Source: Deltaproteobacteria bacterium
GTDB taxonomy: Bacteria > UBA10199 > GCA-002796325 > JACPFF01
Direction of reading: 5' to 3'
Assembly: GCA_016183065.1 (NCBI GenBank)
Contig: JACPFF010000017.1
Span: 1-57,549, forward strand
DNA length: 57,549 nucleotides
Below are positions 1,187 through 45,695 of this stretch, piece by piece. Both the position numbers and the translations under genes were made by a program. Below the pieces are notes generated by a model. It was not told where the DNA came from. It saw nothing but the letters and a program-made list of their open reading frames with translations, and made no database searches. Positions within the stretch are counted from its first letter, which is position 1. The number at the start of each line of letters is the position of its first letter.

Positions 1187-1223
1187 TCATCGCTTGAACT
1201 TCCCCGTGTGCAAGTAGGTCATC
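1187..1223. repeat. 37-bp direct repeat, copy 1 (target duplication)
   Basis: These 37 bases are identical to 1346-1382, the last codons and stop of the metallopeptidase gene. This copy stands next to the ATP-grasp start codon, where the 3' end of the metallopeptidase gene would originally have been. Together the two copies bracket the hairpin repeat at 1224-1345. Confidence 0.85.
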
Positions 1224-1345
1224 TATTGGCGGGGCTCGCGTCGCCCCCTCCACGGGCAAAGCCCGTGGAGCCTCCCCCTCTCGCTCGCGGAGCTCGCTGA
1301 CCGCCTTCGGCGGTCCGGACACCTGTGGCGACAAGAGCGTGGTCC
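1224..1345. repeat. Hairpin-rich interspersed repeat, copy A
   Basis: This 122-bp copy of the window's GC-rich repeat family opens with TATTGGCGGGGCTCGCGTCG. It contains a perfect 10-bp stem (CTCCACGGGC pairing with GCCCGTGGAG around an AAA loop) and a 7-bp stem GACCGCC/GGCGGTC with a TTC loop. Near the right end it has GTGGCGAC, the complement of the GTCGCCAC end word of other copies. It sits exactly between the two 37-bp direct repeats, so it looks like an insertion that duplicated its target. Confidence 0.8.
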
Positions 1346-20333: not shown

Positions 20334-21068
20334 ATGCAGCCGAAGGATCGCATCTTTGTTGCGCTTGACGTTCCAAATCTCCCGAGGGCACTGGGCATCG
20401 TCGCTGCGGTGCAGGATCAGATTGGGGGCGTGAAGGTGGGGCTCGAGCTCCTGACTAGTGTCGGGGCTCCGACGGTGGTCGAAGCCATGTCGGCCTCGGG
20501 GCTCCCGATTTTTTTTGATGCCAAATTTTGCGACATGCCCAATACGGTTGCCGGGGCCGTCGAGGCCGCGACACGCCTTGGTGTGGCCATGATGACCGTG
20601 CATGCCCTCGGGGGGATCCCGATGCTGGAGGCCGCTGTGGCCGCAGCAGACCGGGCTGCGTTATTGGGACCGCGGCCGAAAATCCTGGCAGTGACCATAT
20701 TGACAAGCCTGACGTGGGAGGCCCTCGGCCAGTTGCGTGTCGCACCGCTCGCGAGTGAAGAGGCCCTGCAAGAGTATGTCGTCCATCTCGCGTGCATGGC
20801 CCAGCAGGCCGGTTGTCACGGCGTGGTGGCCTCGCCGCACGAAGTGGCGGCGATCCGTGCCGCGTGCGGGCCGGATCTCACCATCGTGACGCCGGGGGTT
20901 CGTCCGGCATGGAGTGTGCGTGGCGACCAGCAGCGTTTTTCAAGCCCGCGCGATGCGTGCGAAGCCGGCGCAGATTATCTCGTGATCGGCCGGCCGATCA
21001 CCCAGCCGCCCCCGGAAATCGGGACCCCGGCTGCGGCCGTGGCACGCATTGTCGGGGAACTGGCATGA
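20334..21068 (+). CDS. pyrF: Orotidine 5'-phosphate decarboxylase
   Basis: PyrF converts OMP to UMP, the last step of pyrimidine synthesis. The 244-residue TIM barrel has the substrate strand IFVALDVPN and the catalytic charge network FFDAKFCDMPNTV (D-x-K-x-x-D). It also has TVHALGG, VVASPHE, the phosphate-binding IVTPGVRP and the terminal DYLVIGRPITQ. Its stop overlaps the pyrE start by 4 nt (ATGA), so the two steps are translationally coupled. Length and motifs are intact. Confidence 0.95.
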   Translation: MQPKDRIFVALDVPNLPRALGIVAAVQDQIGGVKVGLELLTSVGAPTVVEAMSASGLPIFFDAKFCDMPNTVAGAVEAATRLGVAMMTVHALGGIPMLEAAVAAADRAALLGPRPKILAVTILTSLTWEALGQLRVAPLASEEALQEYVVHLACMAQQAGCHGVVASPHEVAAIRAACGPDLTIVTPGVRPAWSVRGDQQRFSSPRDACEAGADYLVIGRPITQPPPEIGTPAAAVARIVGELA

Positions 21069-21781
21069 CGACCTCCTCCATTGAGCAACTTCTCATGACA
21101 TCGGGAGCACTCTTGAGAGACGGCCATTTTCTCTATGCCTCCGGACGGCATGGCAATGCCTACTTCAACAAGGATGCCCTCTATACCGATCCCGTGCTGA
21201 TGAAACAGCTCGGTGAGGCCATGGCCTTGCCGTTTATCGGGACAGCGATCGAGGCCGTGGCTGGGCCGACGGTGGGTGGGGTCATCCTGGCACAGTGGGT
21301 GGCCTATCATCTGCAAGAGAAGACCGGACGCCGCATTGTGGCCTGCTTTGCCGAGGAGCGCCCCACTATTGGAGGGGCTCACGTACCCTGCGGCTCCGCC
21401 TCCGGGTACTCCCTCGTCCACCCGCTTCGTGGGTGCCCGGACTCGGTCGTCGCCACTGCGGCAGGCACAAAGGAGCGCTTTTTTGGTCGGGGGTATGATC
21501 GCCTGATTGCCAGTCGCCGGGTCTTGGTGGTGGAGGATGTCCTGACCACTGGTGGGTCCGTGCGGCAGGTTGTGGATGCCGTGCGACGTGTCGGTGGCAT
21601 TCCCGTGGGGGTCAGCGCCCTCTGTAATCGTGGAGGTGTGACGATAGAGTCGCTCGCGGTCCCCACATTACACGCCCTATTGTCCCTGATCCTGGAGAGT
21701 TGGCCCGCGCAAGATTGTCCCTTGTGTCGCCGCGGTATTCCGATTAATACCTCGCTCGGAAAAGGTGGGAAATCCGCCTGA
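21065..21781 (+). CDS. pyrE: Orotate phosphoribosyltransferase carrying an in-frame repeat insert
   Basis: PyrE joins orotate and PRPP to make OMP, the substrate for PyrF. The 238-residue chain has normal OPRT landmarks: GHFLYASGRHGNAYFNK, a substrate/dimer segment AGPTVGGVILAQW, and the PRPP motif VLVVEDVLTTGGSV. Between FAEER and KERFFGRGYDR, the region of the mobile active-site loop, lie 30 extra residues encoded by hairpin repeat copy C. The insert is exactly 90 nt between two CCACT words and keeps the frame. Deleting it gives an ordinary loop (FAEERPTAAGTKERFF). The C-terminal CPLCRRG pair of cysteines is also distinctive. The gene is probably functional because it is the only pyrE seen and shows no other damage. 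Confidence 0.92.
   Translation: MTTSSIEQLLMTSGALLRDGHFLYASGRHGNAYFNKDALYTDPVLMKQLGEAMALPFIGTAIEAVAGPTVGGVILAQWVAYHLQEKTGRRIVACFAEERPTIGGAHVPCGSASGYSLVHPLRGCPDSVVATAAGTKERFFGRGYDRLIASRRVLVVEDVLTTGGSVRQVVDAVRRVGGIPVGVSALCNRGGVTIESLAVPTLHALLSLILESWPAQDCPLCRRGIPINTSLGKGGKSA
21363..21457. repeat. Hairpin-rich interspersed repeat, copy C, inside pyrE
   Basis: The copy reads CCACTATTGGAGGGGCTCAC at its left and GGACTCGGTCGTCGCCACT at its right, so CCACT stands at both borders exactly 90 nt apart. Inside are an imperfect stem TACCCTGCGGC/GCCTCCGGGTA and a 7-bp stem CACCCGC/GTGGGTG with a TTC loop that includes one G-T pair. It is read as TIGGAHVPCGS and onward in the PyrE frame, the same frame used by copy E in the lytic transglycosylase. 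Confidence 0.9.
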
Positions 21782-21789
21782 AGAAATAA

Positions 21790-21891
<102 letters not shown>

Positions 21892-21902
21892 TTTATTCCT
21901 TT

Positions 21903-22080
21903 ACTAAGGAGTTTGTACCCCACTATACAGATGACACAGGATGATGAGCCGAGACAAGGAAGATGAGCGAAAAAATTCGAGGCGTAGCCGTCGCTACGTT
22001 GAGGATTTTTTCGTGAAATCTGACGCAGTCGCAGGCCATCAGCCGAAGTCAGATGTATAGTGGGGTATGAACTCCTTAGT
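21903..22080. mobile_element. MITE-like long palindrome abutting dnaX
   Basis: A 178-bp element with near-identical 26-bp terminal inverted repeats (ACTAAGGAGTTTGTACCCCA on the left, its complement on the right with about three mismatches). Nearly the whole length can fold back on itself. The central hairpin has arms AAAAATCCTCAACGTAGC and GCTACGCCTCGAATTTTTT. No protein is encoded. Its right end touches the dnaX ATG, so it supplies the entire dnaX leader. A second element with different ends but the same kind of core is at 38050-38231. Confidence 0.75.
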
Positions 22081-23778
22081 ATGTACCAAGCTCTCGCACG
22101 AAAATATCGCCCCCAAACCTGGGGCGAGGTGATCGGTCAAGACCATGTGACGCAGACGCTGCAGAACGCTGTTGTGCAGCAGCGACTGCATCATGCCTAT
22201 CTCTTTTGCGGCGCGCGCGGGGTCGGAAAGACGACAGTGGCACGGCTCCTGGCCAAGACGGTCAATTGCGTGCAGCGCGGCGCGTCGAGCGAACCGTGCA
22301 ATGCGTGCGAGAGCTGCCGCGAGATCACCAATGGCCATGCCCTCGATGTGCAGGAGATCGACGGGGCCTCCAATACGGGCGTCGACGACGTGCGGGAAAT
22401 CCGCGAACGGATCCAGTATCTCCCCGCGGAGACGCGCTACAAGGTCTATATCATCGATGAAGTGCACATGTTGTCCAAGGCGGCTTTCAATGCTCTCCTC
22501 AAGACACTGGAAGAACCGCCACCCCATGTCCTCTTTATCTTTGCGACGACCGAGCCGCAAAAAATTCCTGCCACGATCCTGTCGCGCTGCCAACGCTACG
22601 ATTTTCGCCGGGTTGCGGCGGAAGAGATCGTCTCGACACTTCGTCATATTGCGACCGCCGAGGGGATGACCGTGGGTGATGATCTCCTCCATCTCCTGGC
22701 TTACGAGGCCGAGGGGGGATTACGCGATGCGGAATCGCTCTTTGATCAGGTCATTGCCGCGTGCGGGACGGCCGTCACGGTCCCCCAGGTACGCAATTTG
22801 CTGGGATTGACTGATCGCATCATGCTGCTCGAATTGGTCCGCGCCATTGTGAAGCGTGACGCAAAGACGGCACTGGGCCATCTGGAGACCGCATTTCAGA
22901 GCGGGGGGAATCTCCCCCAATTGGCCCACGATCTTCTCGAATTTTTTCGCCATCTCTGGGTGCGGGTCTCCTGCGGCGAGCTCCCGCATCGTGCCACTAT
23001 GCCGACCGATGAAGTCGAGGCGGTGGAGACCCTGGCGTGCGGGATGACCGTGGAAGAGGGAGCGCAGTGGTTTGCCATCCTCTTTCGCGGCATCGACAGC
23101 GTGATTCGCGGGCGATTCCCCAAACTGGCCATGGAAGCGGTCCTGCTCCAGATGGTGCAAGTCACGCCGATGACGTCCATTTCGGCGTTAATCGATCGTG
23201 TGGAGGCGATGCTCGCCACGGGCGCTGGGACGCAAACGCCGACCTCAGCTGCCACCATGCCGCAGACACCCACGTCGCGTGCGTCGGCACCGAGTGCAGC
23301 GGCACAGGGGAGAGCCCCCATCAACGCACCGTCTCCTGCGCCTTCGGTGGCGGGGTCCGCGGAGGCATCCGCAGGCGAACCGGGATTTGCCTGGAATGCG
23401 TTTTTCCAGAAACTGAGGAGGTCGCGTCCGCAACTGGCCTCCATCGTTGAGCACGGGCACGTGCAGCGTGCGGATGTGGAGCGGGTGGAACTCCGGTTTC
23501 CGCGCGATTCATTGTATGCGGCCATGTTGCAGGAAGCGGACCGGTTGGCACAATTCGAGGCATTGGTGCACGAACAGTTTGGGAGCACGTGCCGGGTACA
23601 GATTCGTCAGATCGACGGACTGACCTCGGCCGAGCGGCAGGCCACAGTGCGGGCCGAGCGGCAGAAGGACCAGCATCGCCGGCATTCGGCGGCGCTTGAG
23701 CACGCGTTGGTGCGGGAGGCCGGGGAAGTTTTTGGGGCAGAGATTGCCGAGGTCAAGGTCTATGGTGAATCCACTTGA
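22081..23778 (+). CDS. dnaX: DNA polymerase III subunit gamma/tau
   Basis: DnaX is the clamp-loader ATPase of the replicase. The 565-residue protein starts MYQALARKYRPQTWGEVIGQ, the classic N-terminus, fixing the start at 22081. Walker A is GARGVGKTTVARLLAK. A zinc module contains CNACESC and an upstream cysteine. Walker B is YIIDEVHMLSK, and sensor/arginine-finger segments follow (TTEPQKIPATILSRCQRYDF). A Pro/Ala/Thr-rich linker near residues 385-435 leads to a C-terminal tau domain. No slippery A-run for programmed gamma production was seen. recR overlaps its 3' end by 17 nt. Confidence 0.95.
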   Translation: MYQALARKYRPQTWGEVIGQDHVTQTLQNAVVQQRLHHAYLFCGARGVGKTTVARLLAKTVNCVQRGASSEPCNACESCREITNGHALDVQEIDGASNTGVDDVREIRERIQYLPAETRYKVYIIDEVHMLSKAAFNALLKTLEEPPPHVLFIFATTEPQKIPATILSRCQRYDFRRVAAEEIVSTLRHIATAEGMTVGDDLLHLLAYEAEGGLRDAESLFDQVIAACGTAVTVPQVRNLLGLTDRIMLLELVRAIVKRDAKTALGHLETAFQSGGNLPQLAHDLLEFFRHLWVRVSCGELPHRATMPTDEVEAVETLACGMTVEEGAQWFAILFRGIDSVIRGRFPKLAMEAVLLQMVQVTPMTSISALIDRVEAMLATGAGTQTPTSAATMPQTPTSRASAPSAAAQGRAPINAPSPAPSVAGSAEASAGEPGFAWNAFFQKLRRSRPQLASIVEHGHVQRADVERVELRFPRDSLYAAMLQEADRLAQFEALVHEQFGSTCRVQIRQIDGLTSAERQATVRAERQKDQHRRHSAALEHALVREAGEVFGAEIAEVKVYGEST

Positions 23779-37910: not shown

Positions 37911-37918
37911 CCCTGCGG

Positions 37919-38002
37919 CTATTACAGGGGCTCACGTACCCTGCAGCGAAGCCTCCGGGGACTTTCTCGTCCACCCCGCTGCGCTGGGTCGTGGGGCCCC
38001 AC
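37919..38002. repeat. Hairpin-rich interspersed repeat, copy D
   Basis: An 84-bp short copy lies 9 bp after the rho stop. It opens CTATTACAGGGGCTCACGTA, has the ACCCCGC/GCTGGGT stem with a TGC loop (one mismatch) and ends in the palindrome GTGGGGCCCCAC. It keeps the left-end and right-end words but lacks the first AAA-loop stem. It might help to end rho transcription, though no T-run follows. Confidence 0.75.
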
Positions 38003-38049
38003 TCTCCGCCGGAGGAGATCGAATGCGAAATTTGTTGATGCGGGATCTT

Positions 38050-38231
38050 AGGGTCTGACCGGAAATACCTATTCATTTTGGCATCTCATCTTGGGACCAT
38101 CTTTGCCCGATCTTCACTCGCAAAATCCTCAACATAGCCTGGCTATGCCTCCGGTTTTGCTCCCTCAGATCGGCCACATCTGGCCCCAAGCTGAGCGCCA
38201 AAACAGAACAGGTATTTCCGGTCAGACCCTT
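38050..38231. mobile_element. MITE-like long palindrome
   Basis: A non-coding element of about 182 bp with terminal inverted repeats AGGGTCTGACCGGAAATACC (one side then TATTC, the other TGTTC). The interior folds back along its length. The core hairpin has arms AAAATCCTCAACATAGCC and GGCTATGCCTCCGGTTTT, the same design as the core of the element at 21903-22080. The right end supplies the TAA stop of the phosphodiester glycosidase gene. Confidence 0.75.
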
Positions 38232-44745: not shown

Positions 44746-45648
44746 ATGCGACAACGAGTCTTCACGCGACTATTTTGGATCGGTCTCGGATCCCTTGTCT
44801 CTCTGACCAGTCCCCATGCCACTATTGGAGGGGCTCACGTTGCCCCCTCCAGCGGCAAAGCCGCTGGAGCCTCCCCCTCAGCGCCGCGGTGCGGCTGGGT
44901 CGTGGGGCCCCGGACGTCAATCCGGGGGGTGTCGTGCCCAGGCGAAGCCTCCTCCCAGGGTGCCACGGGCGTGAGCCCGTGGGGCCCCACGATCATCACC
45001 CTGCTCAAACGGACAATTCCCCCGACCGCCGTGACGACCGCCGCCTGGATGGACGATGAATTCCGGGCGATCATCCAGGAGGTGGCACGTCTCTATGCCA
45101 TCGATCCGGCGATCATCGCGGCCATCATCCATGTGGAGTCGAACTTTAACCCGCGGGCCCGCTCGCATCGAGGGGCGATGGGACTGATGCAGCTGATGCC
45201 GGGGACGGCCCGGATGATGGGGGTCTCGGCGCCTTTTGACCCCGTCCAAAATATTCGGGGGGGGACCCGGTATTTCCGGTCGCTGCTCGACCAATTTGAG
45301 GGAGATATCCTGCTGGCGCTGGCCGCCTATAATGCCGGACCTGGGGCGGTCGCCCGCTACGGACGGATTCCCCCATATGGGGAAACGGAGCGGTACGTCC
45401 CCAAGGTCGTCCACTATTACCACCGCTTTGCCAGACTATTACAGGGGCTCGCGTCGCCCCCCCAACGGGCAAAGCCCGTTGGGTCCCCCCCTCTCGCGCG
45501 CAGTGCGCGCTGGGGTACTTCCTCGTCCACCCAGCTTCGCTGGGTCCCCGGACTCGGTCGTCGCCACACCCCCCTCCAGCGGCACAGCCGGGTCAAGGCC
45601 CAGCTTTGCTGGGCCGCGAAGCAAAGTCGAAGACTTTGCGGAGTGTGA
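44746..45648 (+). CDS. Lytic transglycosylase (SLT) with two repeat-encoded segments
   Basis: The enzyme cleaves peptidoglycan strands to 1,6-anhydro ends in the periplasm. The catalytic domain at residues 100-230 is intact, with glutamate 131 in HVESNFNPRARS, GAMGLMQLMPGTARMMG and ALAAYNAGPGAVARYG. The 300-residue chain is unusual at both ends. After the signal peptide (RLFWIGLGSLVSLTSPHA), 56 residues are encoded by hairpin repeat copy E, inserted in frame. From about residue 231 onward the 70-residue tail is encoded by copy F. Removing copy E restores SPHATIITLLKR. AAGGAGG precedes the ATG by 5 nt. The upstream 135 bp is AT-rich without a gene. Confidence 0.88.
   Translation: MRQRVFTRLFWIGLGSLVSLTSPHATIGGAHVAPSSGKAAGASPSAPRCGWVVGPRTSIRGVSCPGEASSQGATGVSPWGPTIITLLKRTIPPTAVTTAAWMDDEFRAIIQEVARLYAIDPAIIAAIIHVESNFNPRARSHRGAMGLMQLMPGTARMMGVSAPFDPVQNIRGGTRYFRSLLDQFEGDILLALAAYNAGPGAVARYGRIPPYGETERYVPKVVHYYHRFARLLQGLASPPQRAKPVGSPPLARSARWGTSSSTQLRWVPGLGRRHTPLQRHSRVKAQLCWAAKQSRRLCGV
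44819..44990. repeat. Hairpin-rich interspersed repeat, copy E, inside the transglycosylase gene
   Basis: The copy starts CCACTATTGGAGGGGCTCAC and ends in GTGGGGCCCCAC. The CCAC words at 44819 and 44987 are 168 nt apart, so the insert is 56 codons. Stems include CTCCAGCGGC/GCCGCTGGAG with an AAA loop, GCCGC/GCGGC, two GTGGGGCCCC palindromes and CACGGGC/GCCCGTG. It is read in the same phase as copy C in pyrE (TIGGAHV). Confidence 0.9.
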
Positions 45649-45695
45649 TGGAGCCCCCCCCCTCTCGCGCGCAGTGCGCGCTGGGTCGTAGTGTA
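45436..45695. repeat. Hairpin-rich interspersed repeat, copy F (long form)
   Basis: A composite of about 260 bp that shares with copy B the CCCAACGGGC/GCCCGTTGGG stem, GCGCGCA/TGCGCGC, GGACTCGGTCGTCGCCAC, the GGCCCAGC/GCTGGGCC palindrome and the AAAGTC/GACTTT stem. It adds ACCCAGC/GCTGGGT with a TTC loop. It begins inside the transglycosylase gene and encodes that protein's last 70 residues in a phase different from copies C and E. It ends just before the 3' end of the convergent nucleotidyltransferase gene. The right end is approximate. Confidence 0.85.

Follow-up and report, generated by a model that had tools for sequence, protein, structure and literature searches.

The pyrE locus

The window (the whole 57,549-nt stretch of DNA that was analysed) contains a pyrE gene that is interrupted in frame by a copy of a repeat, and further copies are found elsewhere in the window, both within and between genes (Table 1). 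The gene product is an orotate phosphoribosyltransferase (OPRT) that carries the Pfam domain Pribosyltran (PF00156) and matches OPRT structures in the PDB. The repeat takes up approximately codons 101 to 130, where it encodes TIGGAHVPCGSASGYSLVHPLRGCPDSVVA, flanked by FAEERP and TAAGTKERFFGRGYDRL. A sequence-only reading of this DNA had described an exact 30-codon copy between two CCACT words, and this is confirmed, with the two words spaced 90 nt apart. Its description of the insert as a 90-nt palindrome needs amendment. The insert is indeed a palindromic repeat in frame, but, as a single unit within a larger mosaic of modules, it is not a simple palindrome of 90 nt.

Table 1. Features of the pyrE locus and other repeat copies in the window
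Feature	Position	Strand	Remarks
pyrE, orotate phosphoribosyltransferase (OPRT)	21065-21781	+	238 codons plus stop; open reading frame, Pfam, PDB matches, nine aligned homologues
Inserted 90-nt repeat unit, 30 aa, in frame	21367-21456	+	Ambiguous junction, within the CCACT words at the two ends
First CCACT word, 5' junction of the pyrE insert	21363-21367	+	
Second CCACT word, 3' junction of the pyrE insert	21453-21457	+	
Conserved two-hairpin core within the pyrE copy	21384-21454	+	Model R1, 86.1 bits
In-frame copy in a lytic transglycosylase gene, close to the N-terminus	44815-44994	+	Gene 44746-45648; SLT domain PF01464 downstream
Copy that provides the C-terminus, with the stop codon, of this lytic transglycosylase gene	45431-45689	+	
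Intergenic copy that follows a long gene, after its stop codon	13549-13791	+	
Partial copy, other module type	1220-1299	+	
Short copy	37914-38010	+	Weak core match, 20.8 bits; adjoins an unrelated 181-nt palindrome

Other palindromes are also present in the window. A different, long imperfect palindrome with 54-nt arms (TACTAAGGAGTTTGTACCCCACTATA...) lies at 21900-22083, between the SRP RNA gene (21793-21892) and dnaX, and a 75%-identical copy of it occurs in another genome of the class (locus L102, genome G009). The 181-nt imperfect palindrome at 38050-38230, shortly 3' of the short repeat copy, has 90-nt arms that are 72% complementary, and its ends recur at locus L078.

PyrE with and without the insert

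The 30-residue block is found only in the PyrE under study and is absent from all nine of its closest OPRT homologues, among which the length of the loop at this site differs by a few residues. In the same-family relative, FAEERVIIAGSKERCFGRGYD stands opposite FAEERPT-(30 residues)-AAGTKERFFGRGYD, and the lengths are equal, without a gap, once the insert is set aside. The loop word of this relative begins with Y (YAEERV), and the sequence of the nearest relative, AEERVIIAGSKERCFGRGYD, has the same length as AEERPT...AAGTKERFFGRGYD minus the block. A protein search against the same-family genome splits at the insert, matching residues 3-104 and 132-235 of 238 to DNA that is contiguous in the relative. 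The earlier proposals that removal of the repeat restores an ordinary OPRT loop and that the rest of the enzyme is intact are both borne out, as the nearest relative matches gap-free once the insert is removed and homologues align on both sides of it in an otherwise normal OPRT.

The genome comprises 1.97 Mb in 30 contigs and is 88.8% complete. An initial scan of a collection of genome contigs with PyrE gave no match. A protein search of the genome returned a single OPRT, the other 60 matches being the repeat-encoded peptide. No second pyrE was found in this search; one is unlikely, and it is not excluded because of the incompleteness of the genome. Homologues sharing these 30 residues, or another intact pyrE, would have refuted the sequence-only reading, and neither was encountered.

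Because a homologue profile aligns the PyrE loop (AEE...GRGYD) with RKEAKKHGMQRRIEG of the phosphoribosyltransferase structure 2p1z, at its flexible RKEAKKHG loop, the insert is placed in the catalytic loop. This assignment holds at the level of alignment. The structure is, we assume, that of a Corynebacterium enzyme. The mobile loop had also been said to carry the catalytic lysine, and here only the loop assignment stands. Which lysine is catalytic in this divergent OPRT is not established, because the closest PyrE lysine, that of TKER, follows the insert on its 3' side and is missing from some relatives in the alignment. An AlphaFold2 model built from the single PyrE sequence had a mean pLDDT of 35.7 and was not used. 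Presumably the enzyme still works with 30 extra loop residues, which is inferred in the absence of activity data.

A modular hairpin repeat

About 100 copies of the repeat, a modular hairpin element rich in GC, are present in the 2-Mb genome. Sequence was read only in stretches around copies, approximately 427 kb in all. These contain 109 element starts and 51 near-full-length 90-nt units, whose identity to the pyrE copy is 86-100%, with a median of 93.5%. Genome-wide, the structural core is matched at least 97 times. Because the unit recurs this often at the DNA level, alongside the core matches, the pyrE insert is not a chance resemblance.

The 5' start of the element reads (C)nAC-TATT(GG/AC)AGGGGCTC(A/G)CG, with CnAC preceding TATT in most of the 109 copies for which the 5' flank was counted. 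Full-length copies start with GGGGCTCACG and end with CGTGGGGCCCCAC, which form an imperfect inverted pair. Short copies are without this pair and have GTCGTCGCCAC as their recurrent 3' end. The copy in pyrE is such a minimal unit, and a few other copies end likewise (that in a squalene/phytoene synthase gene and that at L074). Between the ends are exchangeable hairpin modules, with copies ranging from about 80 to more than 300 nt and some arranged in tandem. Several copies, including those in pyrE and acpS, have CnAC or CCAC on both sides, while the squalene/phytoene synthase copy has CGAC on one side and CCAC on the other; the CCAC on the 3' side also belongs to the element itself. No clear target-site duplication is apparent in the junction list.

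When folded alone as RNA, the pyrE copy performs no better than shuffled sequences (z -0.9), and structure is therefore claimed from covariation only. An alignment of 13 core sequences, 12 of them from relatives, displays a two-hairpin structure with covariation. In this alignment 91.7% of core cells are paired compared with 80% in shuffles, none of 500 shuffles reaching as high, and 11 of the 20 pairs have changes on both sides. Slid controls of the same alignment were all far lower.

Copies in other genes

Coding potential was scored on both flanks of every copy, and candidates were checked with Pfam and against relatives. The expectation that the element enters essential genes in frame is met beyond pyrE, in acpS, carA, murF, ribonucleotide reductase (RNR) and others. 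In acpS and carA the copy is in frame and stop-free, and the insert is absent from all five order-level relatives (G001-G005). The in-frame, stop-free copy in murF is positioned just 3' of the P-loop. Squalene/phytoene synthase and lytic transglycosylase genes, both recognised by Pfam, also contain in-frame, stop-free copies. Class II RNR and type I fatty acid synthase each have two, with one of the RNR copies inside an intein. An alpha/beta hydrolase gene is read through a stop-free copy on the sense strand in a frame other than the usual one, and in-frame, open copies are also contained in five less well supported ORFs (L029, L060, L068, L074 and C7:9445-9637). An antisense frame is read in both RNR copies, in the lipoprotein-like ORF at L068 and in mqnA of the relative G001. 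An exclusive sense reading frame had been suggested by the first eight genes and was dropped after an insertion was found in another frame.

Two of these genes have further features. The RNR (L063, contig C3:4200-14700) contains a LAGLIDADG intein that holds one copy, the other being in the C-terminal region. The type I fatty acid synthase ORF with its two copies (L209, contig C27:72500-77500) is very long, at approximately 3300 aa.

Four intragenic copies break the gene that contains them, namely a btuF-like gene, the 3' end of cinA, a Y1 transposase gene and a nucleotidyltransferase gene (the last judged by eye). Broken insertions are seen mainly in dispensable genes. In the btuF-like gene (L041, 4263-4439) the copy is in phase, is read in another frame and has one stop codon, making it a natural broken case.

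Among the 92 copies whose end could be delimited, the sense frames are open in 79, 61 and 70 copies and the antisense frames in 50, 7 and 12. From these six-frame counts, a random insertion would be in phase and open approximately 17% of the time. The observed figure is 12 of 16 (P of about 5e-7). This P value serves as a guide, since detection favours in-frame cases, and the figure itself is optimistic because out-of-frame insertions are harder to recognise. The in-frame excess is most simply attributed to purifying selection acting on insertions that are translated.

Relatives of the element and an association with tRNA genes

Of 46 genomes in the class, 18 contain a match to the core model, with 1 to 11 copies each, compared with at least 97 in the genome under study. 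Recurrence in other genera was observed directly. G001, from a sister genus in the same family, has a clear in-frame copy in mqnA and a second copy in a ParB-like ORF without Pfam support. In G010, from another family of the class, a bare core is in frame in panE, where homologues split at residues 149 and 177-180 with nearly contiguous DNA. A scan for the exact core pattern in 84,980 species genomes matched only two, both members of this class. Two class members have names, Bdellovibrio sp. FI88_57_8 and Deltaproteobacteria RIFCSPHIGHO2_01_FULL_43_49. The latter we take to belong to candidate phylum UBA10199.

A tRNA gene lies within 200 nt of 14 of the relatives' 26 copies, most of them at a distance of 76-84 nt. 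In the genome under study this is true of 4 of 101 copies. The hairpin core of the relatives' copies often splits a T-arm-like word (GGATTC/GAACC) that copies the adjacent tRNA. It is possible that the copies adjoining tRNA genes are the ancestral form of the element. Among class relatives, loci L115, L122, L124, L125, L169-L171, L175, L176, L183 and L185 have the core 22-152 nt (mostly 76-84 nt) from tRNA genes.

The search for a mobiliser

The sole transposase family searched was Y1 (PF01797), which has two matches in the genome under study. A Y1 transposase (RAYT) as mobiliser is not supported. The gene on contig C2 ends in unrelated inverted repeats of its own and does not have the element on its flanks, and the other match is cut short at the position of a repeat copy. 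No autonomous partner of the element was found in this one-family search. At the C2 locus (L161, C2:1100-2700) the Y1 gene lies between inverted GGGTACGTCATAC repeats, and the same word abuts truncated ends of repeat copies at L033 and L059.

Searches of other collections were also negative. Phage and plasmid collections contained no match to the element, viral contigs scanned for the 5' motif gave unrelated short matches only, and no Rfam family matches the element, only SRP RNA and tRNAs being above gathering scores. A search of the open literature, with subscription journals falling outside it, did not turn up a description of such elements for this lineage.

Comparison with known palindromic elements

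The closest parallel is with the Rickettsia palindromic elements (RPEs), which are palindromes of approximately 100-150 bp found between genes and in frame in conserved genes (Ogata et al. 2000, 2002, via PMC2229807, PMC10969869, PMC3767692). They have an open frame and no transposase of their own, and they insert in tolerated loops. A Rickettsia guanylate kinase bearing an RPE is translated and active (PMC2229807). The element under study is likewise a many-copy palindromic repeat in genes and spacers, inserted in frame in conserved genes and absent from their homologues (pyrE, carA and acpS, and panE in G010). The analogy drawn in the sequence-only reading is supported, as the insert is in frame in an otherwise intact essential enzyme, is absent from relatives and recurs in other essential genes. 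Unlike RPEs, the element belongs to a different phylum, is GC-rich and is a mosaic of exchangeable hairpin modules, and its core covaries across a class, often beside tRNA genes, with the exact pattern in no scanned genome outside that class. It works like an RPE, but homology to RPEs is not shown, the exact-pattern scan being the only comparison, and for this reason the element is not filed as an RPE.

Other small repeats also enter genes. The enterobacterial ERIC/RU-1, RU-2 and RU-3 and the 107-bp Neisseria Correia element are non-autonomous and have open frames that are fused in frame with host genes (PMC2229807). These intragenic MITEs resemble the element in both respects. They also have terminal inverted repeats, whereas the ends of the element form an imperfect inverted pair in full-length copies only. 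They differ in that the element interrupts several central housekeeping enzymes internally in one genome and that target-site duplication is not shown for it. GTAG- and CGTC-tagged REPs with RAYT are high-copy hairpin repeats that form clusters and mosaics and are sometimes intragenic (PMC3733652), all of which applies to the element. However, the element is without a conserved unpaired GTAG or CGTC tag, its CGTC-like position being base-paired and varying between T, C and G with its partner, and the Y1 gene examined is not flanked by it. Finally, the byps of Magnusiomyces mitochondria are palindromes in protein genes that are transcribed and bypassed by the ribosome (via PMC6649704). The element shares the palindromic insertion in protein genes, but its frames and stops look translated.

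Proposed mechanism and alternative explanations

Very probably, what interrupts pyrE is a copy of a non-autonomous hairpin element, selfish and GC-rich, that is translated and tolerated where the frame is kept. Translation into protein, retained enzyme activity and mobility at the DNA level are inferred, there being no expression, protein or activity data. The element would multiply at the DNA level, probably via single-stranded hairpins and with a moving enzyme that is unidentified, and would enter many sites. Copies that keep the frame and are free of stops could survive in essential genes because they would be translated as a tolerated surface-loop extension. For gene-breaking copies, the only lasting sites would be spacers, gene ends and dispensable genes.

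Alternatively, the segment may be an intervening sequence at the RNA level, either a miniature intron or a byp-like translational bypass, that is transcribed and absent from the protein. A conserved structured element with real covariation would suit such removal, and untranslated palindromes are known in mitochondrial genes (PMC6649704). However, all insertions backed by a two-sided protein family or by relatives are a multiple of three with an open frame, neither of which a removed sequence needs, and the genes with a broken frame are mostly dispensable or cut at the end. The absence of an Rfam match also means that no known ribozyme or intron is involved. Removal or bypass is not needed and would leave unexplained why copies in essential genes are only open and in phase, and we regard it as very unlikely. 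Still harder to credit is that the insert is an ordinary lineage-specific OPRT loop that happens to resemble the repeat, or an assembly artefact. Although loop length does vary at this site among relatives, the match extends to the DNA and is not confined to the peptide, with dozens of copies at 86-99% identity in spacers and unrelated genes, and the 90-nt unit is in frame in many unrelated enzymes.

Domestication, in which the encoded peptide would be functional across host proteins as a regulatory or localisation tag, draws on the fact that most sense-strand insertions read in one frame (TIGGAHV...), though stops are almost as rare in the remaining two sense frames. Against this, at least one sense insertion (alpha/beta hydrolase) uses another frame and several are antisense, host proteins include both cytosolic enzymes and a secreted transglycosylase, and a target motif, CnAC, that is often codon-phased could account for the frame bias. 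Domestication is thus also highly improbable.

Implications for the lineage and beyond

Under the selfish-element explanation, a history can be proposed that we hold with only slightly better than even confidence. A class-wide hairpin family, first located beside tRNA genes in a copy of the T-arm, would have turned into an RPE-like invader at least three times (in the genome under study, G001 and G010) and exploded in one lineage, entering essential enzymes in frame and even an intein, independently of and far from the Rickettsiales.

RPEs have been described as a unique but recurrent feature of Rickettsia, which are obligate intracellular bacteria under weak selection. If the interpretation is correct, an unrelated GC-rich lineage with inserts in pyrE, carA, murF, acpS, RNR and fatty acid synthase would show mobile DNA to be capable of repeatedly adding translated segments to core enzymes, and invasion of protein genes by palindromes would be a recurrent evolutionary route. 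The class-wide covarying core and the tRNA-linked forms offer a route to the origin of the element and to its mover. Matched enzymes with and without inserts would form a set in which to test how such additions are tolerated by proteins and later put to use.
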